From Sipunculus nudus (Eukaryota > Annelida > Sipuncula > Golfingiida > Sipunculidae): DNA of 64,000 bases. The DNA is taken from the NCBI GenBank assembly GCA_026874595.1, contig CM049307.1:74686643-74750642 (forward strand). The letters are read 5' to 3'. The translations under genes were made by a program, and so were the position numbers. The notes beneath the pieces are model-generated. The model worked only from the letters and a program-made list of their open reading frames with translations, was not told the DNA's origin and did not search any database. Within the stretch, counting starts at the first letter, position 1, and each line of letters begins with the position of its first letter. Of this stretch, positions 771-62,737 are shown piece after piece.

Positions 771-3128
771 GTCTTTTATAGACAGCAACTCATCAAGTGT
801 CTAAAATCATACACAACTTGTTGAGAGTCTTTCACATGACAAGTCAGGCATATAGACAGACAAATCAACTAAAAGACAGACAGAGAGACAGACTTGGATT
901 TAAAGACAGATTCAGTCTAAGTTTAGACTTGCAAGATCTTAACTCAAAATATGGGGGAAAAACAGTTGAGTCCACAAGAACATTAGGGAGGTGAGATGTC
1001 CCTTTTACAATGTACTTTGTGCTACAACCCACTATTCCATAACCGTAACTTGTGTGTGTGATGTCTCTGTTAGCTCATCCTGTTGTTATATATGCTATTT
1101 GAAATTGTCAATCATAATGAAATAACTCAAACTTGCTATATATAAATATATTTCATCAAATCAAATCCAGGTCCATGTGCATCCAGACTTGTTGGCTGTG
1201 AATAATGCGTGAATGTATACAAAAAGATTTTATGGAATCTGTTAAATAAAAAATTTTTAAGTGTCGTTTAAAATAAAATACAGCAGTGAAACATCAGATA
1301 GTGAAGACACAAGCCCTGTGTGAGAAAATATAGACAAATATTGAATCATTAAACCATGTGACATCATAAATAACTTTAAAGCCTGGATAAACTGCTACTT
1401 ATGGGTTATTTCAATCTCCATAAACAGCAAGACAGAGAGCTAAATAAAGTCACAAAATTCATTATCATGAGATCATTTATGGTCAATTTCTTTCTCTTAT
1501 AATCCACAGTGCAATGCCCTCAGCAATACAGTGCTCTCCCTGCAAAAAATCATTTATGCTGTGGTATTACTTATAAATTTACTAATATCACTACTCAAGT
1601 AACTAATTCATTCACACATACAAGACACCCTGGATAGTGTAAAAAGAATAAAGTGATAGGGTAGTGATTATATTTATATGGTTCAGTTACTGTAGACATG
1701 TTAATAATGACATTAGTACTGTGGGCTATAAAAAGCAAATCATGCACACTTGAGCATTGTACCATGTGCTGTAAATTAAATTAAGCATTGGCAAATGCAT
1801 AAATGCATTTGATCTTAATGCCCCAACTGTTATTAACATAAACCATAATTATATAACACACAAAATATTTATAAGGTGTTTTGTTAGTAATACAAGTCAA
1901 GTATCAAGACTGAATTAATGAGCTAATAATATGGTGGATACTAGTTGTTTAAAAAGGAAAATAACAGGCAAAGTAATAAGCTTATTTATAAGTAAATATA
2001 CAAGGAGTAAAATAATATATACTTTTTTTCATACATATGTAACACATTATACAACTATGACACCAGTTCTACTAGAAATACAAATTTAAATATCACTACC
2101 TTACCTATATCCCTGGCCCGGGTATTATATACCTCTTTTATCTTTAACTGTAAGTAGTATTTAAGTAGAGGACACTTAAGCTGTGACTACAGTAGCCCAA
2201 TAGGTCACACATACTTAACTGACATATGTGAGTGAACTATGGTTGTAGTACAGTTATCCAACAAAAACTTTTCTGTGTTTACCAACATACAAATTCTGCA
2301 GTTTTAATTATCAATGTAAAAAGAAAAAATATATATATATTTTTATCATATTTATATTTTTATTTATAATTGTATTTTATTAAATTTTTAGCTTTATTTA
2401 TCTGAAAACCTTAAAAATCAAAACACATTTTTAATAGGAATATATATTCAAATAGCAGTCTAACACCACTTATAAATCTATATTTAAGCACTGGACCATT
2501 ATATAAATCATTATCAATTCAATTTACATGAAACCTCTCCTAACAATGCATGGTTGCTCAAGCATGAGACTGAAACTGAGCTTAAGCTTTTAACTCACCA
2601 TGTGTTTCCATAGCGATGACAATATCATATTTCTTCAAAGCTCATGTGGATTCACATGGTCTTCATGTATATTGATTCAAAAATGGAAATTTTATCTTTT
2701 GGAAAATGCACATCACTCAAATTCAGGGTTGTAATGATGTTGTTACAAATGTTACCATGCAGAGTAACAATAGTTTTTCATGGTTTCTGTTCAACTGAAC
2801 CTACTGACTGCAATAAGATTATTTATCAGATTGTTAAAATGTATGGAATTATATGAACTGGTTCCCCTTTTCAACTGTGATATTTAACATAAATAGTTTG
2901 AAACACAGCCTGTAACACATTTCATTTTTAATACTGACCAATTAGCTAAAACAGCTGATTTTATATCCTATCAAGGTGCATCAATGAGTATTATTAGTTT
3001 TTCACTCTGCATCCCAGGTTATTCTGGTCTGTACAGATATTCTTTCTAAGCCTATAGCACACTAACTCAGTTAGAGAACATACAACATACAAGTCTATTT
3101 CTATATTGAAATTTGGATCAAGGAGGGA
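771..3128. other. AT-rich non-coding stretch
   Basis: No gene, RNA or clear mobile element recognised. Many short AT runs; open frames are short and unconvincing. Confidence 0.6.
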
Positions 3129-3196
3129 ACAAGTGACCCATGGGTCATGACGCTCAGCTGACTGGGAAGACATTTGCAAAAGGAAATTTTATCATC

Positions 3197-4239: not shown

Positions 4240-4344
4240 AATGGTAGTATATAACCACTGAACTGATTAACCAACAGGCTGAGATTGTGTCTGTATTAAT
4301 ATATCTCAAGAATAGAGAAAAAATGTGTAAACTTAAAAAAAAAT

Positions 4345-6640
4345 ACAGGTGGCTCCACCAGTCTGCAGAAACTAATAAAAACACTTAATGGTCAATACCC
4401 ATGCAAAGAAGCATGGTGGTCTCTGGATTAGTTGTTCAGATACTTCAGCCTTTGTATCAGATTTTCCATTATTCTGAGGGATACTTTGGAGTCCTATAGC
4501 TTGAAGGATATGGGTAACAGAGACCTAATTTCAGGTTTCCACAGACACTTTTCATGGGCCTACTTGCATGACAAGAATGAAGATTCTAGGTCCAGTTGTT
4601 ACAATTTGGACCCTGTTGACAGATAACCACATCTTTAAAGGTCTCAAAAATAGAGAAAATAATTCTTAAAAATTTGAAAAAAAATAGAGGTGGCGCACCC
4701 AGTCTGCTGAAACTGATGGAACACGTCATGATCAATATGTATGCCAAAAATCATGAGCATCAGTGTTGTAGTTATTTGTTGGAGTTTTTGTATCTAATTT
4801 TTCATTATTCTGGGGGGTACTTTGGAGCCATACAGCTTAATGGACATGGGTAACAGAGACCTTATTTCAGGTTTCCATGGAGATTTTCCATGGGTCTCCC
4901 TGTGTGTAAAGAATGAAGATTCTAGGTCCAGTTGTTATGATTTGTGCCCTATGAACAGATGTTCATATCTTTAAAGGTCTCAAAAATAGAGAAAAAAATT
5001 TAAAAAAAGCCCGAACAAATACATGTGGTGCCACCAGGCTGCAGAAACTGATGAAATACTCCATGACCAATATCCATACAAACAATTATGGTGATCTCTG
5101 CATTAGTTGTTCAGATACTTCAGCTTTTGTATCAATTTTCCATTATTCTGAGCTGCACTTTTGAGTGCCATAGCTCAAAGGATATGGGTAACAGAGACCT
5201 AATTTCAGGTTTCCATGGAGAATTTTCATGGGTCTCCCTGTGTGTCAAGAATGACGATTCTAGGTCCAGTCGTTACAATTTGAACCCTGTTGACAAAATA
5301 ACTACATCCTTAAAGGTCTCAAAAATTGAGAAAAAAATTGTAAAAATTTGAAAAATACAGGTGGTGCCACCAGTCTGCAGAAACTAATGAAACATCTCAT
5401 GATCAATATGTATGCCAAAAATCATGACCATCAGTGATGTAGTTAATGAGATATTGAAGTTTTTTTGTGAAATTTTTGACTATTCTGGGGGGTACTTTGG
5501 GGCCCCATAGCTCAAAGGATATGGGTAACAGAGACCTAATTTCTGGTTTCCATGGAGACTTTTCATAGGTCTTTCAGAAGGTCAAGAATGAAGATTCTAG
5601 GTATAGTCCTTACGATTTGTGCCCTGTTAACAGATGTTCACATTTTTAAAGGTCTCAAATATAGAGAAAACAATTCTTAAAAAAAAAAAATAGAGGTGGC
5701 GCACCCAGGCTGCAGAAACTGATGACACACTCCATGATCAATATCCATGCAAACAATTATGGTGATCTCTGCATTCGTTGTTCAGATACTTCAGCTTTTG
5801 CATCAAATTTTCCATTAATCTGAGCTGTACTTTGGGAGTGCCACAGCTCAAAGGATATGGGTAACAGAGACCTAATTTCATGTTTCCATGGAGACTTTAC
5901 ATGGATCTCCCTGTGTGTCAAGAATGAAGATTCTAGGTCAAGTCATTACAATTTGAACCCTGTTAACAGATGTCTACATTTTTAAAGGTCTCAAAAATAG
6001 AGAAAAAAATTCGTAAAAAATCGAAAAATACAGATGGCGCCACCAGTCTGCAGAAACTGATGAAACATCTCATGATTAATATGTATGCCAAAAATCATGA
6101 CCATCAGTGATGTAGTTAATGAGATATTGAAGTTTTTGTATGAAATTTTTCACTATTCTGGGGGGTGCTTTGGGGCCCCATAGCTCGAAGGATATGGGTA
6201 ACAGAGACCTAATTTCTGGTTTCCATGGAGACTTTTCATAGTTCTCTCAGAATATCAAGAATGAAGATTCTCGGTCCAGTCTTTACGATTTGTGCCCTGT
6301 TAACATATGTCCACATTTTTAAAGGTCTCAAAAATAGAGACAAAAATTCATTAAAAAATTGAAAAATACAGGTGGCGCCACCAGTCTGCAGGAACTGATG
6401 AAACATCTCATGATTAATATGTATGCCAAAAATCATGACCATCAGTGATGTAGTTAATGAGATATTGAAGTTTTTGTATGAAATTTTTTACTATTCTGGG
6501 GGGGTACTTTGGGGCCCTATAGCTCGAAGGATATGGGTAACAAAGACCTAATTCCAGGTATTCAAGGAGATTTTTCATGGACCTCTCTGGATGTAAAGTA
6601 AGAAGATTCCAGGTCCTGCAGTTACGATTTGTGCCCTGCT
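4345..6640 (+). repeat. Seven-unit ~338-bp tandem array with alternating unit types
   Basis: The anchor 'agtctgcagaaact' recurs near 4359, 4700, 5036, 5371, 5706, 6044 and 6382 (spacing 335-341 bp). Units 1, 3 and 5 share 'attagttgttcagatact' (or close); units 2, 4, 6 and 7 share 'catcagtgatgtagtt' (or close). So the array is largely built of ~675-bp dimers, with a final B-B step. Short open frames in it recur with the repeat and are not genes. Confidence 0.9.
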
Positions 6641-6642
6641 AA

Positions 6643-6675
6643 CGGCCGGACGGCCGGACGGACAGACGGAAGGAC
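6643..6675 (+). repeat. ACGG-type tetranucleotide microsatellite
   Basis: Imperfect (GGAC/GGCC) steps lie just inside the 5' end of A1. The same position in A2 to A5 carries ACGG or its complement CCGT. Confidence 0.85.
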
Positions 6676-27956: not shown

Positions 27957-37599
<9,643 letters not shown>

Positions 37600-46273: not shown

Positions 46274-48362
46274 ACAAGGGACCCATGGGTCACGGCGCTC
46301 AGCTGAATGTGACAGATGTAATTGTATCAACATTGTTGTATTTAGGTCTGTAAGATTTCATTTTGACAGATGTAATTTTTTGTATTTATTATGTAGTTGA
46401 GCAGAATAGTAATATCGAAGTATCAGTTTTTCAAATATGTACAAGAATGTGTGTCTAAAATATTTCATTGGGAATGACCAGATGTTGTAATTTGCAGAGG
46501 AAGGAAGTGGAGATTTGCAAGTTTAAAATACACATTTAATAAATAAATAAATTATGGAAAAGTAGAAAACTGATATGTTTTGGGAAGCAGTTGTTGCTGA
46601 TGGGAGAGGAAACAGAATGTCTCAAAAACTATCTATTGATAAGAAATGGTACATTAAGCTAAAATAAGTTGCCATATTTGATCTGAATTGAAGAATAGGG
46701 GATTGTTGCCAATAATATCTTGTGATCTGACCATGTGTTCTCTAATGTTGAAACTGAAGCATTTAAACAGTTAGCAAAGACAAAATCTGATATTTCCATG
46801 GTCATTGGTTGGTTCTCTGACTGTCAATATTGAAATCGCCCATGATCACTATAGGCAGGTAGAAGTCAACTTGAGGGACTAAAACTTGGAGTTCAGAGAA
46901 GAAGTTACTGATGGGACATGCGGGTGACCTATAGAGGAAAACAATCCGAGTCTGACTGTGAATATAGAGAAGAGATGACTCAAAATCTGGTGTTGTGTGG
47001 TGGTGAAGGGTTACATGGGGACTCAGTTGTTCATGTATATAAATGGCTAAACTATGAGGTGGTCTTTTGTTGTTGTTCCTCTGAAAGCTATTTGACCATT
47101 TCTGATAAGTTTGTAATGAGGACAGAGAGATAAAAAAACAAAGCAAATCACTTTAATTCCCATTCTACTGAGGCAGAAAAATAATGAACGAATGTTTGCA
47201 TTATATCATTCTTTTAATACATCAATTTTTTGTTAAGGGAAATTTTGCACAAATTTTATAAATTTTACTATACATTTACAGTATGTATCAGTTATATTTG
47301 AAACTTTAAGATGATTAACAATTCTAAAATAGATCAACATTTATAGTTAATCTGCTCAGGCAACATCACATTATATACACAGATGTATTTATTTTTTCTT
47401 AAAATATATTTTTGAAATTTGCAAAATAATTAACATCTGAAAATAACACTTGATTCAGGAAAAGTTGTGTACATTTGATCCGAAACAACAATGCAATTAA
47501 AGAATGTAAATAATGCAACATATCTGGTTGGGCAGGAGGGGGGGGGTCAGGGTTGCCATGTGATTCTACATTTGTGACAGCCGTGTTGCATCACTAAAAA
47601 GTTAACCAAGGCAAGGGACCAGACATGGCTGGTCTGGAAGTTCAAAATGGAAATACATTAGAGCCTCAGAAAAACTTCAATAACTAGAACAATTTTAAAG
47701 CTTTTTCTTTCAAATTTCAGAATTTTACAGATTAAATATATATATACTAACTGTGAAAAGTATTCAAAGTTCAAATGTTTTTACAAGAAAGAAACATGCC
47801 ATGGTCAAACTTGGGCAAAATTTAAGGTACCAAATTTATATTTTTTGCTAATATTTAAAAAATTTAACAGATTTTGATCTAATTTTTGGTATACAATTTA
47901 ATTTTGATTAACTAAAGTTGTATTACTGAAAAAAAAGTCCCTAGGTTTAACATTTTTTGTCTTGAGAGACCATTGTGTTTGGGCCCATAACTTTTTTAAA
48001 TTATATAAAACAGACTTAATTTCTGGCATGTACATAGGAACTATATAGAGGAATATTTATGGTAAATATGAAGAAAACCAGATGAGTGGTATTGATATTA
48101 GGCAGCCCTGAAGTGTGAAAATAGATTTCTAATAAAAAATTGAGGTTTTTCCTTAATATCTCGAAGGAACGAAGTCCTATTGACCCAATTTTTGGCATAG
48201 TAGGAGATTTTAGGGACCTCTAACTGTATGCCGAATTTCAGATTTGTAGGTCCAATGGTGTTGGAACGTGCCAGTCTAATGGACGGACATCCGGGCGGAC
48301 GGACGGAAGACAGACAATAAACCACGATTATAGCTCAGATGACTTATAGTCAGCTGAGCTTA
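46274..48362 (-). mobile_element. Family A Helentron-like element, copy A5
   Basis: The 3' end at the left is ACAAGGGACCCATGGGTCAC then GGCGCTCAGCTGA. The 5' end at the right, read on the - strand, is TTAAGCTCAGCTGACTATAA followed by a CCGT microsatellite. One ~690-bp core unit lies near 47860-48260. It differs from A3 and A4 in keeping an endonuclease fragment near its 3' end. Its 3' end faces that of A4 340 bp away. Confidence 0.83.
46690..47146 (-). pseudogene. Broken endonuclease (EEP fold) fragment of a Helentron or non-LTR element
   Basis: The - strand frame from 47146 contains SLAIYIHEQL, an FLYRSP block and IVIMGDFNID, the order seen in apurinic-type endonuclease (EEP) domains of Helentrons and CR1-like retrotransposons. 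GDFN holds a catalytic Asp and metal-binding Asn. The frame stops at 46802. About 25 codons on, in another frame, TWSDHKILLATIP supplies the final catalytic SDH, so a frameshift or stop separates the two. It is in the same orientation as A5 and close to its 3' end, where Helentron endonucleases sit. Not functional. Confidence 0.7.
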
Positions 48363-49123: not shown

Positions 49124-49186
49124 TCACTCCGTCCAGCGATGAGTACAGTCTGGTCGTGTACACACATAGTACAGCCTCATTCCCTC
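49124..49186 (-). CDS. POLR2I: POLR2I coding exon 5
   Basis: Last exon: [20 protein letters not shown] then TGA. It gives the last Cys pair and the conserved HRW. The nearest AATAAA on this strand is at 48575-48570, about 550 bp downstream; a closer non-canonical signal may be used instead. Confidence 0.95.
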   Translation of the reverse strand, partial: EGMRLYYVCTRPDCTHRWTE

Positions 49187-52100
49187 CTGCAATCAAAATA
49201 AAACATTCATAGTTAATGCGTGAACATCATACATTGTGTAATCCAGTGAAAGTCTTTTTTCACCTTAAATGTACAATAATTGACTAATTAATTGACTAAT
49301 TAACTCTTACTTTGGTTTATCCTTTCAATGGGCCACCATTGTACATATACAGAGCCTACACAGGGGAACCCCCCTGCCCTACTCTGTAAGAGTTCAGCCT
49401 TTGCATTGCAAGTGCATGGGATTCATGTTGAAAGCAGAGACTGATTTTGAAATAGGTGGATTTCCCATGCTTGTACACAAGATAAGACACATTTATGGGT
49501 GTGACCAAAAGGACATCAGCATTCAATGGCCTGATGTAATTCCCAAATAGTTTTCTATGATAAGTAGGAATCATAGCAAAGTGAAAGTGATAGTGTCTAT
49601 GACCGATTTCCATATAATTATATGATGAACATATTACATTCATGTCAGTTAAGAAAAAAAAAATATGTTCGCAGTGATTACAGTAATCTCTATTCGAAAT
49701 GTTCCTGTAACGAGATATTGGATGGGAAGGAACTGATGTTATCTCACCATATAATGTCAAAACCAAGTAAACATCTGTTCATTTCTCAAATTTTCTGCGA
49801 GATTTATGTGACAATAACTGAACAAAACTCATATAAAGCCACTGATATAAGAAGTATAAAATCAAATAAATGATGCAAATAAAATCATTTGGTCTACAAT
49901 GGTTCTTCATTTGGATATATTTTTATAATCCTTACATCAAGAAGTTTGATATAATATTTTATTCAGTGGGTGTTTTCAATAACCATAAACATTCATATGC
50001 ACAAACACTTCTACATGATATTATCTTCCATGATTAAATGAAGAATTATAAAATGTTGATTACCATATTAAAATTTGTATTTTATAAAATGTTGATTAAT
50101 CCTACCTCTGCCTTTGATGAATGAGACTGGAAGAAAACAGACTCTCTGTGGCCACATTTTGGACAAGGGTGGTCTTCTGTGCGGGGCAGTGTGGGGTCTG
50201 CTACAACGTCACCAATAATCTGTGTCAACTCACTGAAATATACAGGATGCAACTCTGTTAGAAACACCACAAACAGAAGAACTTAATGAACAACACTTTG
50301 TTCCCTATAGCTTGGACAGTATAATCTTGGTACATTACAATTATAAGCTTGTTGTGCATGTTGAGTGTAGCCATCTGATTTCACACTGACCAGGCGGTTG
50401 GGTAAACATATTAGCATGTGGGTTTGTTGTGTAGGATGTATTACATCCAGAACAAAGACTGGGCACTGATGTGATTAACTGGTGCAAGGTGTTACAACAC
50501 AGGCAAAATTTAGAAATGACTTAAATCTAGCAACACATGTTGTTTTATTCCTCCCTGAAAATTTGGGGCTGACAGTGTCAGAAATACTAAGTTTTTGATA
50601 AGATGTAAAATTTTAGTCACAGGGGTTTTCCCTCTATGGTGAGAGTATGGGACTCTGATAATCAAAGTGGTTGCATTTTTGAGCTGGTCATCTAAGAGCA
50701 AAAGAACTGGGACTGTGATCAAGTGGTGGTGATTTTGGGGTGGTCTTTAAACCAAGGTGGCCTTTAGTCAAGGTTTTACTGTATATTATTATCAGGACTG
50801 CTTTACAATTCCAAATCTGATGTACATGTGTTTAGAATATTCACATATGACTAAATAAAGAAAGAATTCCTTACTCAATGTCATGCTGGATTTTGTTGAC
50901 ATATACACAGCGGTTGTCTGCCTCTTGTTGATAATCACAGTTTCGGCACTGAAATAAATAAAAATAAATACAAGTAAAGTTGGTTTATAACTGCATCCTG
51001 ACATTAGCCTTTCCGAATGTTTATTATGTAACCATAAAACCATGTACTTTAATGAAATACCTAAATCAAGATATTACCAGACTTTACAGTATTCCTTAAT
51101 AATTAATTAGAAATAATTAATCAGAATTCATTATTTATAATATTAATTATTTACAAACTAAAATATGTTGACTACATGTATCTGCCAAAATCAGAGTGGA
51201 ACGGGTGAAGTGAGGCATGGATTGAGTAGCAACGGGAAAAGAGTGAAGTGTTGCATATTAGCATGGATGTCTGCAGCCGAAATGTGTATGTAGGTTGCAC
51301 CACCTACCACAAAATCCAGAAAGCTGTCCAAGTTGTATACATATGCAAAATAAGTCAATTGAACCACTACAAGTATATGAGTGATTTTAGCCCGTGGCAC
51401 ACAAACAGAGGGACACTGTGCAAAAATGGTTGCAGATGGTGCCACCAGTTTTGCGTATGATAAAGAGCTATGTGAGATCTATACACATGCAAAACTTTGG
51501 TCCAATTGGTTGCACGGTTCCCGAGATATGAGCTTGGATGTCTGCAGCGTAAACTAGAATGTAGGTGGCACCACCTGTCATAAAATCAAGAGAGCTGTCC
51601 AGGATGTATAAACCTGCAAAATTTTTGGCAGATATGTCAAACCACTGCCGAGATATGAGTGTTTTATCCCATGGCAGACAAACAGATGGACACTGTGCAA
51701 ATATGGTTGCAGGTGGCGCCACCATTTTTTGTGTATGTTTTAAAGCTATCCAAGGGCTACATTTATACCAAATTTTTTTCCTGATCGGTCAAACGTTCCT
51801 GAGTTATGTGGGTTTATGTGTGAATCAGATGCACAAATAGACGCTGGGCAGAGAGGAAAGGTCAGAGGTCAACAGCAATTAGTTAGGCACCAGTTCACAT
51901 GTGACCCGATAATTGGTGTAAGTTTCAGAAAAATCTGTCCAGTAGTCTCAGAGGAGTTCTCCGGAAACAAACTTCGTTTTGACGGATACAATAAATATTT
52001 TGCTTATTCACATAACTTTACAATGATAAATGTAAATAGGAATAGAGCTGGTTAATGTTGCAATGGTTTATGTTTAATTGTTTTAATCAGAAGGTTTAAA

Positions 52101-55100
52101 CTGAAAACATAATTGACAACAAGGATAGGCCTTTCAATAACTGTGTGCCAATGTTAAAGAGACTAATTAATTTGATGGGGGTCAAAAGACTGGCACGGAG
52201 AGTGCCTTGTGTCATTGCCATGGTAGTTTGTGCAAATGGTGTTCCACTGTAGTTGCAGGCATATGTATATATATGGAAAATTTAAATTTGGAATAATTAT
52301 ACAGTTAAATTACAGTTCTAGATATACCTGTCCATCTCTGACCCAGTGCTAACAAAAAGAATTTTGTGAATGCTTTTGTGATTTATAAATGTATTATATC
52401 TCTCTAAGGACAAAACTTAACTTTTCCATGAATGAATGTCACAAAAACAACTCAATTAATAATTAAAGAATTTTATTAAATCTTCTTAAGGATAGTTGCT
52501 TTTCCATTAAAGAATGCCAGATATACAGCTTAATTATTCATTGACGAAATTTATTATATCTTTTTAATGACAGTTACTTTTCTAAAAATGAATGTCACAA
52601 ATACAATTTAATTATTCATATAAGAGATTTATTAAATATCTTTAAGGATATTTAATTTTCCATGAATGAATGTTCTAAATACAACTTTAAAAGAAATAGT
52701 GAAGATATCTCTGCAGTCTGTGTAAGGAAAGCATGGTACAGTCCGTTCCAGTGCCCCTGTCCACCTGTTTTTTCACAATTATTCATTTGCGAATCAAAGA
52801 AAGCCAACACTTTTTGACCTGAGGGGAGAAAGAGGAAAAAGCGTAATTAACTATTATGGAAATAATAGCCTACCTCTATTAGGCTTATATCATTTTCCTG
52901 TAAACAATTTTAAACCATTTTTTGAGTAACTAGTCTATTCTGTAGCGACATCTTGCCACTAATCTGTGAAATGGGCATTTCAGGAAATAGTGATTACGTC
53001 ATAATAGACGTGACGTACTAACTAGGCACCGACATTCACGGGACCAATAGTCAAGAGCTGCATACCCCTGTTTACAGCGAGACTTGTATTCTCCACATGC
53101 ACATGCTTCACTGTTACGTCACATTACTTTATATCCATATCCAAGGAGGATGGACAATGGCCACTTATCAGGGACGCCATGAACCACGGATATATATGAA
53201 ACATGTCAACTAGGCTGTAAAGTAAATAATATTTTTTTTGTGAGTAGGAAAGGTACCAAAAATTTCACTTTTGCCTCTTTATGCCATCGGTGCAAATTTT
53301 GTTTGGCAAGTCTGTCTTATGTAGAGATAATCGCGAAAAATCAGGTGGACAGGGGGTACTGAACGGACTAAAGTCAAGTGTATACTTACTGCATACAGCA
53401 GAACTCTGTTTTCTTTGTCTTCTTTTGGATACAACATGTTGTTACTGTAAAACACAAAATATTGTTATATGTGAGAGGTATACATGTCTAATTAAATGTA
53501 GTGCTGGAGGATAAAATTATTTCCTAGAATATGTGTGAGTTTGGGGGGGGAGGGTATATTTAATGCCAAGTCAATCGAAATGTTAAAATTATAAGGTTTG
53601 TTTTATTCTGTCCCCACTTAAAGAGTTTCAGCACCAACAGATGATCCAAAGACAAATTATGCCTTTAGAGAGATGTTCAAGAAGACAGAACAACTTCATG
53701 AATGTGTTACACCGGTCTGGTTGGTGATCTGTTCTTATTTTGATGTAGATCGGAATATGGCTTCATAAAAGTAGCCTTAAAGTCGTAACAGGTTGATGAA
53801 GTGGAAACAAAATGGGAGCCTATTATAACATTTTAAAATTTTATTTAACAAGATGTTGTCAAGCCACCCACTAATACTGATCAAATGTGCTGTTATGGTA
53901 TACTGAATTAGCCATAACAATGGGACAGAATCCTTTGAATAGGAAGCTGTTTTTGTGGTGACCCAGATTACCTCCAGATTTGACCCAAAAATCAAACAGA
54001 ATCTTCCCCTAGTGACAGGTTAGCAATATCTTAAAGATGGAAGGTTTGCGATGAAAAGTTTGGCTTCAAATGCATACATATTCCTTTTAAAGAAATGTCC
54101 TGTGACCTTGACCTTTGCCCGTTTGACCCCAAAATCAACATGGTTCTTACTTTAGTGGTCAGCCATTTATAAGTTAAGTTTGAAACCAAAATATCAAACT
54201 TAACTGGAGTTATCATCTGGAAACTAATTTGTGTGGATGGACGGATTGACAGACAGACATACAAACAGACAGACAGACAGGGTGATTAGTATAGGGCATC
54301 GACTTGTGATCAATAAACACACCAGGTTTTGGGACACCAGATGTAATGACAGCTGAGAAACTGACATGATTGTTGTCATTTTATAGTAAGTAAATAGAAA
54401 AATATTTGTTAAAATAGGAAAAAATACAGGACGCGCCACCACATTTCAGGAACTGACAAAACTAGTCATGGTCAATATTCAAGGCAAGATTTATGACAAT
54501 GGCATGTGATCCCCTCATGGGTGACATGTGAACACCTCATGGGCACCATGTGATCACCTCATGGGTGTCATGCCCCTCAGGGCTGCATGTGGAGCCAATC
54601 TATTTATAGCTTTGGCAGACTGCCAACGGTATCAGATTTGGCAACAGGTCAAGAGTTCACTCAGTGCAGGCAGGTACAGATCAAAAGTTCACCCAGTCTA
54701 GCCAGGTGCAGGTCATGAGTTCACTCAGTGCAGTAGCCTGGGCCAGCAAATTTTTCACAGTTCACTTGTATACTTGTTGTATACAATAATTAAAATATGT
54801 TAGGTATAAATATGCCCAATTTCAGGTTGATATATCAAATTCTTCTATAGAAATAAGCAGGCACAAAAGTCACACACTGTGCAAATGTCATTGTAGGTGG
54901 TGACACTTGTCTTGTGAACGAGAAACCCATCAAAGACACATAGTCAGGTCAAAATATTAGGCCAAAACATTAAACTTACCTTAAGTCTGATGCATGGGGC
55001 TGACCACGCTTAGGTGAGAAAGGCAGTTGCCCCAAGTGAACTGTGAAAAATTTGCTGGCCCAGGCTACTGCACTGAGTGAACTCATGACCTGCACCTGGC

Positions 55101-58100
55101 TAGACTGGGTGAACTTTTGATCTGTACCTGGCTGCACTGAGTGAACTCTTGACCTGTTGCCAAATCTGATACCGTTGGCAGTCTGCCAAAGCTATAAATA
55201 GATTGGCTCCACATGCAGCCCTGAGGGGCATGACACCCATGAGGTGATCACATGGTGCCCATGAGGTGTTCACATGTCACCCATGAGGGGATCACATGCC
55301 TTGTGCTTGGCTGCACTGACTGAACTCTTGACCTATATCTGGCTGCACTGAATATACTCTCTTGATCTATTGCCAAATCTGAAACAGTTGGCAGTTTCTT
55401 AACCTATTTAAATATACAGACACAATCTTGGCCTGTTGGCAAATCTGTTTACACATACTGAAAGACTTTGGCTAAAATGCTTTTTTCAAGCTGAAATATT
55501 CATAAACTTTTTATCAAAATATCTAGAATAATAAAAGATTCAGTTCTTTCATTGTTAAAGGTCCAATAATTCTGCCAAAAATCATTCAAGTAAACTTGAA
55601 CAAAGGCCACCTATGAATAATTTTTGTGCCATGTAACAGAAGTTATAATTGAAACAATAATTTTGTAGAAGAACAGTTTTGCAGTCCTCAGTTTGAGTTA
55701 GACATAATAATGGCCATAAGACCAACTTAAGTTTTTCTGATATAATTGAAAGAACCATGTCCTAGAATAATTCTTTTGAAAAACTGAACAATTCAACTTG
55801 ACAGTTTCATCATAAACATTTTAAGCTGAAAGAGGCTAAAATTATGAGGTTTTTGCCCATAAAAACAGATCAATGTAGGTGGCACATCAAAATCTGCAAC
55901 TTCAAATATGAGTCATGTGACCAACATTTGCACAATACTTAGTTATGCTAGCTTCTGTCATTTCTGAGATAACTATGTCAGTATGCTTACTTGGACAAAT
56001 GACTGTTCAAATTCATTTACCTCCACTAAAATTCATCAAATGCAAACCATTTGAACAAACTAGAGAGTGCTTGCCTCTGGGATCATTTCTGTAAAATATT
56101 GAACAATCTGGCTGGACCTTTTACAAGAAGACTTTTAAAGGTTTTTCAGCTTTTCCCCTATAAAATCTAAGTAAATGCAGACAGCAAAAAAATAATCTGA
56201 ATCCCACAACATTTGATATTTGACAGGTAATTACATAAAATCTGGGGATGGTAGCTCCTTCTATTCCTGAGAAATTATGGGTTGATATACAGATGACCAA
56301 TGACCCCGTACAAAAAAAGTCAATGCAGGTGGCACCACCAAAACCTGAATTTCATATATGACTCATGTGACCAACACTGGCATAACATTTGGTGATGATA
56401 GCTCTGGCCGTTTCTGAGATTGTCATTTTAGTATTCTTTTTTGGAGAGATGACTAGGTTCAACTTCCTGTAATTCGGCCAAAATTCACCAAACTTGAACC
56501 ATTTGAACAAACTTGAGAGAGATGGTAAAAAAGATTATTTCTGTGAAATATTGAACAAATTGGCTAGACCATTTTGGAGGAGAAGATTTTTTAAGTTTTT
56601 TTAGCTTTTTCTCTATAAAATCTAAGAAAATGCAGATTTTTTTTCAGATGGCTAATTTTTTGCATTAAATTTCATGATGCTAGCTGCAGTTGTTTTCAAA
56701 ACAGTATGGGTTAACGTATATCTGTGATTGTAAACATTGCCTGGCATGAGGAATATCTAAAATCATAAATCTACATTTTTTAAAAGTTTTTAAAAAACAT
56801 TCTTGTCAATATTAACCAAAGATAACCTGAATCTAAATGTCTGGAGGCATGATGTAATAGGTGCTGATAAACTGGTTCCAGGCTAGATGTATCTGCTTCA
56901 CACAGCTAACATATATGGTAAAATGACTCAATTCAATCTTTATTATTCAGCAAAAATTCATTCTTTGGAATGATAAAAGACAATTATTATAAGAAATATT
57001 CAGGGGATTATTCTTGTAAAACATTAAACAAATTGGCCTTAGTGGCGTCAGTCAAAAAACATTTTGCAGGTTTATAACTCATATAGGAAAATAAAGCAAA
57101 ATGGCTAAGTTAAGCTTCCCATAACTCAGCCAAAAATCACTGAACCAAAACCATTTGAACAAACTTGAATTATCAACATCTAAGGATAATTAATATGTGA
57201 GATTTATGAATTTGACCCAGTGGTTTTTGAGAAGATCTTTGTAGCCACTGAGCTTAAATGGGCTGTTATGGCATATGACTAAATTCAGCTTCCCATAACT
57301 CAGCCAAAAGTCACTGAACTGAGACCATTTGAACAAACTTCAGAAAGCACTACCCTAGGATCATTCTTGTGCGATATTAAACAATTTGGCCAAATGGTTT
57401 CAGAGAAGAAATTTTTTGTAGCTGTCAGTATGATACGGGCACTGATGACCCCCGTTCAAAAAAGGCTTATGCAGGTGGCGCCACCAACACCTCAATTTCA
57501 GACATGACTCATGTGACCAAAATTGGCATAAAATTTGGTGATGACAGCTCCAGCAGTTTCTAAGATTGTAATTTTAGTATGCTTTTTTGGACAGATGACT
57601 AAGTTCAACTAGCTGTAACTCGGCCAAAAATCACCGAACTTAAACCATCCAAACAAACTTGAGAGAGATTTTTCCAGGGATCATTTCTGTGAAATACTGG
57701 ACAATTTGGCTGAACAGTTTCGGAGAAGGAGATTTTTAAAGCTTTTTTTAGCTTTTTCCCTATAAAATCTAAGAAAATGCAGTTAGCCAAAAAATAAGCA
57801 AAATCCGATAGAGTTTTTTAGATGACTAATTTTTTGCAGAAAATTTCTTGATGCTAACTCTTGCCCTTTTCAAGATAATATGGGTTAACTTACAGACCCC
57901 GGACGACGGACGACACCACACCATCGCATAAGCTCACAGGTTCGCTAAAAATTATATGTGATAATTTAGCGAGGAACACATATGTTGGTGCTCAAACATG
58001 GTTTGTAGCACACTGTACAGAATTATGTTGGTGAGCATCACTCCTACATGGTTGAGGATGTCCGGGTGTAATTATTTGGTTGTTTAAGCATTGAAGGGTC

Positions 58101-58312: not shown

Positions 58313-58386
<74 letters not shown>

Positions 58387-61300: not shown

Positions 61301-62737
61301 CTTAAAAAAATTAACCCTCAGCCGTTTGGTAACTGCCTGCTTCTATAGCGTACTCCGTCTCGCGCTTCGCATGGAGAAGTTGGATTTACTGATATTGTGC
61401 ATACTGTGTTGTACATGCACGATATTGTGTGTATAGCCTCAGCCAAAGACATCTGCACAAGTTTGTCTGTCCCTTGTTTTTGAAAGTTGTGGCCCCTGAC
61501 ATGTATATTGTGGCCGTGTAATGGTGAAATTGTAGACAGAAAAACTCTTATAAGTGCTAAATATGCACATCAAAATACATCAGATCGTATCTTTGGTATA
61601 AAATGAGTCTTTCTGGCAACATTACCACATTCTATTTCAATGACACATTATCCCATATTATCCTTGCAAGCCTGCCATGATTTAAACATACCAAACTGTA
61701 GGAACTTGTTGCGAGGGGTTTGGTAACTGCCTGCTTCTATAGTGTACTCCGTCTCGCGCTATGCATGGAGAAGGTGGATTTACTGGTATTGTGGGAAGCG
61801 GATCTCCGGGCAATATGGTGGTCTCTGGATGATCTCAAGGTGAGGTTTCCTTGGATAACTCAATTAATACTTTGTGCACTTGCAAGTTAAGTATTATAAT
61901 TGATGCGGATGTCATCAAGAAGTGTATGGGGAAGGTTTAATACGAATTGCTGCCTTATTAAGATATTGCGATCTTTGGCGGGAGATCTCTGGGTTTTAGG
62001 TACTCTAGTGGCAGAACTATAGAAACCAGGCTGCAGCCTACCGCAGGTACCTTATGCACAATGGGTGTTGCATAATAAATTGTTTCCTGACACAGGCCCC
62101 GATATATATAATTTTCCTGAGAATTCCCGTATTTAATTTTGCTCATAACTGGAGTCTATAATATTAGAAGAGGAGGGGTCCGGGGAACCTAGGTTCCCCG
62201 CCTGAACGGGAATGAGGGGGCGGAGCTTCCACCTTAAGCTTAATTCTCCTGTTCAAATAGTAAATGGTTCCCCCTTTTTCAGATAGATGGGGCTTCAATC
62301 ACGGATATAAATGAACAAAACTCGCCCCTGCTGGTATCTCGTCTTCACGGCTCACTTAGTAGTGTGTAGGGCTCCTAGTCTAGAGATCGTAGGTTCGATT
62401 TCCGATTCAGGTGACTTCTGATGTTTAGTAGTTGTTTATGTTAGAAGAGTTGATATGAGTGTAGGGACATCTACAGGGAAAAGTAAGAGTTAAAATAGGG
62501 ATTGAGAGGAGACAGTTTTATTTATATTTTCATGTTCCTCAATACAAGCGTAGCCCGCGTTTTATAGTGGCTCACACCCCGTCTTGCATCTTAGTCTTAG
62601 GACGAGCCTGTCTGTCCCGTGCCTGTCTGTGGCTGTGCCGTGGATAATACTTACCATTCTTGACAAAACTTTATGCCAACAAAGCCAGGGCCGACACCAT
62701 GTTGTTCTGAACTGAGATCTTGTTCGTCGATATCCAT
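49124..62737 (-). CDS. POLR2I: RNA polymerase II subunit RPB9, complete five-exon coding sequence
   Basis: Small zinc-ribbon subunit of nuclear RNA polymerase II, on the jaw/lobe, involved in start-site choice, transcript cleavage and fidelity. Coding exons on the - strand are 62737-62655, 53444-53390, 50948-50875, 50232-50106 and 49186-49124: 402 nt, 133 residues plus stop (human protein 125). The N-terminal zinc ribbon has CQEC (exons 1-2) and CRNC (exon 3). The linker contains [31 protein letters not shown] and [10 protein letters not shown]. The C-terminal ribbon has CPKC and the C-x4-C pair in [11 protein letters not shown], with the conserved [12 protein letters not shown] and [10 protein letters not shown]. 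Every junction is GT-AG and in phase. The first 15 residues before [10 protein letters not shown] are not conserved with human. The gene spans 13.6 kb because of transposon-filled introns. It converges on RPS14 across the 38-48 kb transposon cluster. Confidence 0.97.
49187..50105 (-). other. POLR2I: POLR2I intron 4
   Basis: No gene in it. A 136-codon - strand open frame (49356-49766) has no recognisable domain. Confidence 0.7.
50106..50232 (-). CDS. POLR2I: POLR2I coding exon 4
   Basis: A 127-nt exon encoding [20 protein letters not shown], then [15 protein letters not shown] and SHSSKAE. It carries the first Cys pair of the C-terminal zinc ribbon. The acceptor is atatttcag and the donor gtagga. 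Confidence 0.97.
50233..50874 (-). other. POLR2I: POLR2I intron 3
   Basis: The right part (about 50560-50785) looks like one end of a pogo-like element: on the - strand it starts TACAGTAAAACCTTG followed by 'gccacc' and 'gaccacc' tracts. The other end was not found. Confidence 0.6.
50875..50948 (-). CDS. POLR2I: POLR2I coding exon 3
   Basis: A 74-nt exon encoding [19 protein letters not shown] then IQHDI plus two bases of Asp. It carries the second Cys pair of the first zinc ribbon. The acceptor is tatttcag and the donor gtaagg. Confidence 0.96.
51158..51991 (-). mobile_element. Family C Helitron-like element, copy C2 (in POLR2I intron 2)
   Basis: On the - strand it starts TTGTATCCGTCAAAACG at 51991 and ends ...TAGTCAACATATTTTAG at 51158, flanked by A and T. 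It matches C1 over the 'ccggagaact' block, one and a half 280-bp units and the 'cacccgttccactctgattt' block, but lacks the GCC run and has a decayed 3' hairpin (TTAG in place of CTAG). Confidence 0.75.
52415..52690 (+). repeat. ~80-bp minisatellite in POLR2I intron 2
   Basis: About 3.5 imperfect units: 'tccatgaatgaatgtcacaaa' or close recurs near 52425, 52503, 52583 and 52660, with 'gattTATTaaat...cttaaggata' between. Confidence 0.8.
52739..53369. mobile_element. TIR element next to POLR2I exon 2
   Basis: The left end CAGTCCGTTCCAGTGCCCCT continues GTCCACCTG; the right end, inverted, is AGTCCGTTCAGTACCCCCTG then TCCACCTG. It is 631 bp. TA lies before the left end and TA overlaps the right end. 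No transposase frame. It stops about 20 bp from the exon 2 edge; the gtaagt donor is intact. Confidence 0.75.
53390..53444 (-). CDS. POLR2I: POLR2I coding exon 2
   Basis: A 55-nt exon; T completes the Cys codon, then [18 protein letters not shown]. The acceptor is ttttacag and the donor gtaagt. A TIR element ends about 20 bp beyond the donor. Confidence 0.96.
53445..54500 (-). other. POLR2I: POLR2I intron 1, exon-proximal part
   Basis: It holds a decayed DR1-type repeat unit (53985-54230) and a GACA microsatellite (54240-54282), together a family A/B relic. Otherwise featureless. Confidence 0.6.
54501..55300. repeat. 268-bp near-perfect inverted repeat with 264-bp spacer
   Basis: Arms 54501-54768 and 55033-55300 are complementary over their full length with one mismatch seen (gcaggcagg versus gcagccagg). 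Each arm holds 'catgtgatcacctcatggg'-type and 'gagttcactcagtgcag'-type short repeats. Diverged copies of the same short repeats continue to the right of the right arm (55300-55400). The whole unit lies in POLR2I intron 1. Confidence 0.96.
55400..57960 (+). mobile_element. Family D decayed repeat element with hairpin end
   Basis: Units headed by a 'ggtggc(g/a)ccacca' block recur at about 55877, 56329 and 57474 and share 'catgactcatgtgacca', 'tttggtgatga' and 'aaccatttgaacaaactt'. The right end has a ggacgacggacgac microsatellite (57899-57915), then the hairpin TTCGCTAAA / TTTAGCGA at 57943-57975. The left border was not found. The layout parallels families A-C, but ends and target are unproven. 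Confidence 0.55.
58315..58383. repeat. (AT)n microsatellite, about 69 bp
   Basis: Uninterrupted AT dinucleotides in POLR2I intron 1. Confidence 0.95.
59170..59275 (-). repeat. Dispersed repeat shared with 16235-16335
   Basis: On the - strand 'cgcgaaaatgaaaccct', 'gaaactttc' and 'atataaaggc' match the copy at 16235 in order. Confidence 0.6.
59870..60235 (+). mobile_element. tRNA-derived SINE, copy 1
   Basis: It shares with 62245-62545 the blocks 'ctggtatctcgtcttca', 'ctcctaatctagagat', 'gtagggacat' and a 'tttccatgttt' tail. The head is tRNA-like (A box near 59982; B box 'catttgattcc', degenerate). Confidence 0.7.
61035..61130 (-). mobile_element. tRNA-derived SINE head
   Basis: On the - strand 'ggggcagatggcagtgcgta' (A box) and 'tggttcgagacctgg' (good B box) are ~35 bp apart. 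No full cloverleaf. Confidence 0.6.
61324..61398 (+). repeat. Direct repeat unit 1 (75 bp)
   Basis: 'gtttggtaactgcctgcttc' and 'tactccgtctcgcgct' recur at 61718-61792 with about five changes. CpG-bearing, unlike the surroundings. Confidence 0.85.
61718..61792 (+). repeat. Direct repeat unit 2 (75 bp)
   Basis: Second copy of the 61324 unit, 394 bp away, same orientation. Confidence 0.85.
62245..62550 (+). mobile_element. tRNA-derived SINE, copy 2
   Basis: 'cttcacggctcacttagtag' forms an A-box head and 'gtaggttcgatttcc' at 62390 a good B box. The body matches 59870-60235. It lies 100 bp downstream of POLR2I exon 1. Confidence 0.75.
62655..62737 (-). CDS. POLR2I: POLR2I coding exon 1
   Basis: Encodes the N-terminal 27 residues, starting [10 protein letters not shown] and running through [12 protein letters not shown], plus TG of a cysteine completed by exon 2. 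The donor is gtaagt. The ATG context is ATCATC-ATG-G. Confidence 0.95.

Follow-up and report, generated by a model that had tools for sequence, protein, structure and literature searches.

The 64,000-nucleotide stretch of the Sipunculus nudus genome analyzed here (the window; contig CM049307.1 of assembly GCA_026874595.1) contains the gene POLR2I, whose first coding intron harbors a near-perfect inverted repeat. The repeat lies within a copy of a HINE-like element, i.e. a non-autonomous Helentron, that is truncated at its 3' end. The reading favored here, with a probability of roughly 0.8, is that a single local template switch in this copy created the repeat. Most likely, the hairpin arose through an ordinary accident in the copying of DNA and does not represent a dedicated gene or signal.

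The left arm (54501-54768, minus strand) and the right arm (55033-55300, plus strand) are each 268 nt long and are complementary at 267 of 268 positions, the sole mismatch being 54670/55131. Between them lies a spacer of 264 nt (54769-55032, plus strand), the loop of the hairpin, which is element sequence save for its first 10 bases. The complementarity ends abruptly on the outer and inner sides alike. Alignment of the arms thus bears out the initial annotation, which had described a near-perfect 268-bp inverted repeat with one mismatch and a 264-bp spacer. Inverted pairs with a length of 60 nt or more number 44 in the window, and among the 25 longest this one is the closest and the most perfect: the arms of the other 24 stand at least 5 kb apart and are 75-90% complementary.

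The genome (1.43 Gb in 153 contigs) was searched with the left arm. The search returned 1,945 first-look candidates, and the best 40 were scored; apart from both arms of the window and a short piece, these yielded 38 near-full-length matches of 96-97% identity. Sixteen of the 38 were fetched with their flanks and compared. In all 16, spacer, right arm, and right flank follow one another collinearly in the window orientation, the position of the right arm being the same in each, and none of the 16 carries the oppositely oriented arm. Identity to these copies is 96.6-97.7% for the arm and 87-95% for the spacer, the alignment of which starts at position 11 in copies L006, L008, L013, and L019 and at position 18 to 50 in the other 12. 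In 15 of the 16 copies, comparison of 2.4 kb with itself finds no inverted match at E≤1e-5; L018, which also holds additional incomplete arm copies oriented like the first, has one that is limited to 67 nt at 81%. These results bear directly on the idea that paired arms are intrinsic to the mobile element, as in a fold-back element or a long-armed miniature inverted-repeat transposable element. The arms are indeed element sequence with sharp ends; with a single arm in every fetched copy, however, this explanation has next to no probability left and is rejected.

The left side of the repeat tells what the left arm displaced. Left flanking element sequence aligns in 14 of the 16 copies (all except L007 and L011) and reaches position 54499, the base before the outer joint, after which the relatives continue into other element sequence; the left arm has therefore taken the place of resident sequence. 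Counted from alignment coordinates, the resident stretch that separates the two joints measures 439 bp in L008, 432 bp in L013, and 298 bp in L019, so that about 300-440 bp would have been lost, judging from these three measurable copies. A resident segment has thus been replaced by the reverse complement of a nearby one; to the right, all 16 copies are collinear with the window, and the left joint can be read in 14 of them.

Substitutions indicate the direction of copying. In a gap-free alignment of both arms to the 16 copies, seven bases common to the two window arms differ from the family majority, and five of them occur in none of the 16. Since these private substitutions are found in both arms, the donor was this very right arm or a sister or allelic copy of it, and the left arm was copied after the right arm had acquired them. 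At the single mismatch (55131/54670), the right arm agrees with all 16 copies and the left arm deviates, meaning that the change happened in the left arm. With five substitutions before the event and one after it, the event falls within the last 9% of the independent life of the copy, with a 95% range of 0.2-47%, a width that limits the age claim to “recent”. The sequence comparison therefore gives strong support to the view that the left arm was copied locally, recently, and in reverse, replacing resident sequence. The initial annotation had already proposed a recent inverted copy, and the 16 one-armed relatives, the common private substitutions, and the change confined to the left arm uphold this view.

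Both joints can be read at base resolution. At the outer joint (54496-54501, plus strand; read in 14 copies), most relatives have TCATGACAA followed across the joint by ACCATGCATT, the window has TTATGACAA, one extra T, and then GGCATGTGATC, and the donor strand has GCACAA followed by GGCATGTGATC. ACAA, which directly precedes the copied segment on the donor, is thus common to resident and donor sequence, and is followed in the window by one unpaired T. At the return joint (54765-54784, plus strand), which was read in the four copies whose spacer aligns from position 11, the donor ends in CACTTG, with CTTG in common, and a quasi-palindrome of 6+5+6 nt follows. The latter reads AGTCTTGTATAC-AACAA-GTATAC in L008, with a GACAA loop in L013 and L019, and is lacking in L006; in the window it reads CACTTGTATAC-TTGTT-GTATAC, i.e. 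the 5-nt loop is inverted. With equal base frequencies, at least four common bases are expected at about 1.6% of random joints. Among the 100 palindrome sites listed out of 198, the inverted TTGTT loop occurs only in the window. Folded as single-stranded DNA, the palindrome of the family reaches -3.5 kcal/mol (matched by 12 of 200 shuffles) and that of the window -5.1 kcal/mol (matched by 1 of 200), values that make it a modest hairpin. A G-to-A change beside the palindrome was considered as an extra trace of hairpin copying and dropped because both letters are common among family copies.

Genome-wide searches with the joints, covering the non-N genome sequence, separate the ancestral from the derived forms. 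Allowing up to 3 mismatches, the ancestral outer and return joints have 3,366 and 426 sites, respectively, with one control match each. The derived return joint has a single site at up to 3 mismatches and no control match; the derived outer joint has one mismatch-free site and one two-mismatch match on C1, its reversed-pattern control giving one match. An amplified two-arm subfamily is not supported, as each derived joint is single without mismatch in the genome. The same observation speaks against an older pair of arms held alike by gene conversion, an alternative raised by the initial annotation that would be compatible with near-identical arms. With five substitutions private to the arms and one difference acquired later, the pair looks as plain recency would leave it, and gene conversion, which is not needed to explain the likeness of the arms, is regarded as highly improbable.

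The footprint is that of a four-point template switch with the order 1-4-3-2, a known type of mutation that is here unusually long. In such an event, the polymerase may have stalled near the small palindrome, left its template, and annealed by a few homologous bases to the nearby opposite strand or to its own nascent strand; by fold-back or cross-strand copying it would then have copied 268 nt in reverse before returning to the template. With leftward synthesis, the donor would already lie on the nascent strand, and it would suffice for the new 3' end simply to fold back close to the GTATAC...GTATAC palindrome, while rightward synthesis would involve a switch between strands. Template switches described in great apes (Walker et al. 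2021, PMC7954356) are alike in that a nearby reverse complement replaces a resident stretch, leaving one inverted repeat and two switch points. The orders 1-4-3-2 and 3-2-1-4, which yield single inverted repeats, form the majority in that account, and the order 3-2-1-4 is presented there as possible within one nascent strand, the rule being that point 2 precedes point 1 (PMC7954356). Hairpin-creating switches reported in ribosomal RNA (rRNA) likewise produce a perfect stem in one step, and inversion of a hairpin loop, as at the small palindrome here, is among the products described (PMC8794818). A one-base interruption of joint homology is reported as common in microhomology-mediated insertions of the microhomology-mediated break-induced replication (MMBIR) type (PMC8421209).

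Several points weigh against this interpretation. The extra T at the outer joint is without explanation, and the return joint is read in four copies only, one of which, L006, is without the palindrome. Two of the 16 copies, L007 and L011, are without an aligned left flank, L018 has its additional incomplete arm copies of like orientation, and all 16 were drawn from the best 40 of 1,945 candidates. The two-mismatch match to the outer joint on C1 also belongs here. The length is at odds with the published cases as described: the great-ape scan covered about 100 nt around each cluster, whereas 268 nt would have been copied here (PMC7954356); the rRNA stems are short, the largest pattern (59 bp) having failed quality control and been dropped there, against a 267-bp stem in an intronic repeat here (PMC8794818); and the MMBIR insertions were copied from within 100 bp (PMC8421209). 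Besides, the ancestral state is taken from paralogous element copies, in contrast to the great-ape comparison (PMC7954356), and not from the orthologous locus in a relative or another individual. The inverted repeat itself is known from the assembly sequence alone.

A close alternative, albeit an unlikely one, is that the same local inverted copy was made not at a replication fork but by templated synthesis during the repair of a break, whether through synthesis-dependent strand annealing, polymerase-theta end joining, or break-induced replication. An uninterrupted tract of 268 nt is long for theta-type insertions, which counts against the second of these routes. The loss of resident sequence together with a templated insertion with short joint homology nevertheless fits break repair equally well, going by the insertions reported in PMC8421209, and no sequence feature cleanly separates break repair from fork switching. 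The initial annotation had also allowed for an assembly artefact. In an artefact of assembly or library preparation, a chimeric molecule or collapsed reads would have made the second arm. The locus is a high-copy repeat, and amplification chimeras are often inverted. The two joints (out and back), the replaced resident sequence, the base difference between the arms, and flanks made of ordinary element sequence are set against this origin, which looks improbable. A single local template switch stays the preferred origin of the arms.

The host copy of the repeat extends from 53981 to about 57951 on the minus strand, its 3' end (to the left in the window) being missing. Its portion 54779-57952 shows 94% identity over 3.2 kb to two of five long loci compared, L025 and L026, and its portion 53981-54499 shows 86-91% identity to four of the five. 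L025 and L026 (9.9-kb loci) share 92% identity over 4.8 kb. Compared with these relatives of about 4.8 kb, the window copy is without the 3' end and carries a private inverted copy. The subterminal inverted repeats GCGAACCTGTG/CACAGGTTCGC occur at both ends in three of the five long loci (L025, L026, and L027), one end motif of L025 carrying one mismatch. L028, left out of this count, has the left-end motif and, 5.6 kb off, a right-end-like motif with one mismatch; L024 has neither motif at up to one mismatch. An AAGGCCT palindrome lies beyond one subterminal repeat, and the 3'-end palindrome AACAAGGCCTACAGGCCT is found in four of the five loci (L025, L026, and L028, with L027 at one mismatch); AACAAGGCCTACAGGCCT folds weakly as DNA, 29 of 200 shuffles being equally good. 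In the window, the element end motif is present at 57935, while the motifs of the other, palindrome-bearing end have no match at up to 3 mismatches.

Within the element, the flank to the right of the repeat (55862-57950) contains a succession of diverged direct repeats, including a 143-nt pair spaced 450 bp. The diverged short repeats that had been noted to the right of the right arm are indeed there (families D2 and D4), and the listing for the stretch searched (53500-56500) has none on the left side of the left arm. The HINE plan, as outlined in PMC7492417 and PMC4067079, comprises subterminal inverted repeats, a terminal palindrome, short tandem repeats inside, and many copies. The element resembles it in its subterminal inverted repeats, its terminal palindrome (as seen in the family), its internal tandem repeats, and its high copy number. 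The arms are thus part of a high-copy element whose ends match this plan, and which is best termed HINE-like. In the genome, 143 matches to Helitron_like_N were found among 150 scored of 195 candidates. The whole stretch around the repeat is a damaged copy of a high-copy mobile element, a point missing from the initial annotation. At 4304-6643 of the window, staggered matches reveal a self-similar array with a step of about 337 bp; arrays resembling it adjoin HINE copies in L024, L025, and L027. Separately, L028 shows at 1891-3190 (reverse complement of the locus) two HINE palindrome-end motifs about 1.3 kb apart, perhaps nested or joined ends.

The placement of the repeat within POLR2I, proposed from the outset, holds. 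Five coding exons on the minus strand, at 62655-62737 (with donor GTAAGT), 53390-53444, 50875-50948, 50106-50232, and 49124-49186 (with the stop), are separated by GT-AG introns and join into a protein of 133 amino acids. The spliced frame matches Pfam RPB9 (2.3e-16) and the TFIIS zinc ribbon, as well as solved RPB9 chains at 4e-71. Genome searches with the Pfam TFIIS and RPB9 zinc-ribbon models gave no match in the window, presumably because the exon-intron structure splits the domains. The inverted repeat is situated within the first coding intron (62654-53445), at a distance of about 1 kb from exon 2. An uninterrupted run of 34.5 AT dinucleotide units occupies 58315-58383 of the same intron.

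On the minus, transcribed strand, the RNA of the repeat folds at -632 kcal/mol, compared with a mean of -249 +/- 9 kcal/mol for 20 shuffles; for the plus strand, folded together with short flanks, the corresponding values are -648 kcal/mol and, for shuffles, -262 kcal/mol. Such values, far below those of the shuffles, leave chance as no serious option. The POLR2I pre-mRNA is predicted to carry a hairpin of 267 bp, which splicing would remove and ADAR might edit. The genome has 11 matches to ADAR-type deaminase exons and one to Dicer-dimer (E 1.6e-5), and in most of the animals profiled, double-stranded RNA (dsRNA) derived from repeats is reported to be the main substrate of editing (PMC9989829). 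Together, the ADAR-type exons and this preference for repeat dsRNA suggest that the hairpin may be edited if transcribed, and the idea of an ADAR or Dicer substrate, raised by the initial annotation, is physically plausible.

It is a different matter whether the repeat is a working part, i.e. a hairpin kept for the production of small interfering RNAs (siRNAs) or for control of POLR2I by ADAR. The very stable fold predicted on the transcribed strand, the ADAR-type and Dicer-dimer matches, and the role of repeat dsRNA as main editing target in most profiled animals (PMC9989829) would suit such a function. It is nonetheless a recent copy, private to this truncated element, and recency accounts for the high pairing. 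No sign of selection on the hairpin was seen, no direct test for selection having been made. A working role is considered very unlikely, and the inverted copy is probably neutral. An animal counterpart of Mu killer can also be envisaged. In maize, Mu killer is described as a partial inverted duplication of a transposon giving a hairpin RNA that silences its family in trans (PMC3440606). The resemblance lies in the partial inverted transposon duplication, possibly transcribed from a neighboring gene into a hairpin RNA. Mu killer, however, silences its own family in trans (PMC3440606), whereas the POLR2I-intron hairpin is known as a sequence and a predicted fold. The proposal that it is such a locus newborn, with constitutive dsRNA or siRNAs acting in trans on thousands of HINE copies, is highly speculative.

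Elsewhere in the window, related repeat units occur at 29575-30970 and 51255-51968; in one place they recur at steps of about 280 bp, and an inverted partner lies some 21 kb off. An open frame on the minus strand (46802-47152) has MGDFNID near its end, which we take to be a motif of non-LTR retrotransposon endonucleases.

The repeat thus offers a clean, base-resolved case of a template switch of several hundred bases, in which the donor, both joints, and the type of sequence replaced can be identified thanks to the many relatives of the element. It illustrates that a long, nearly perfect RNA hairpin inside a gene can arise in one step, and high-copy repeats provide a ready means of finding such events genome-wide.

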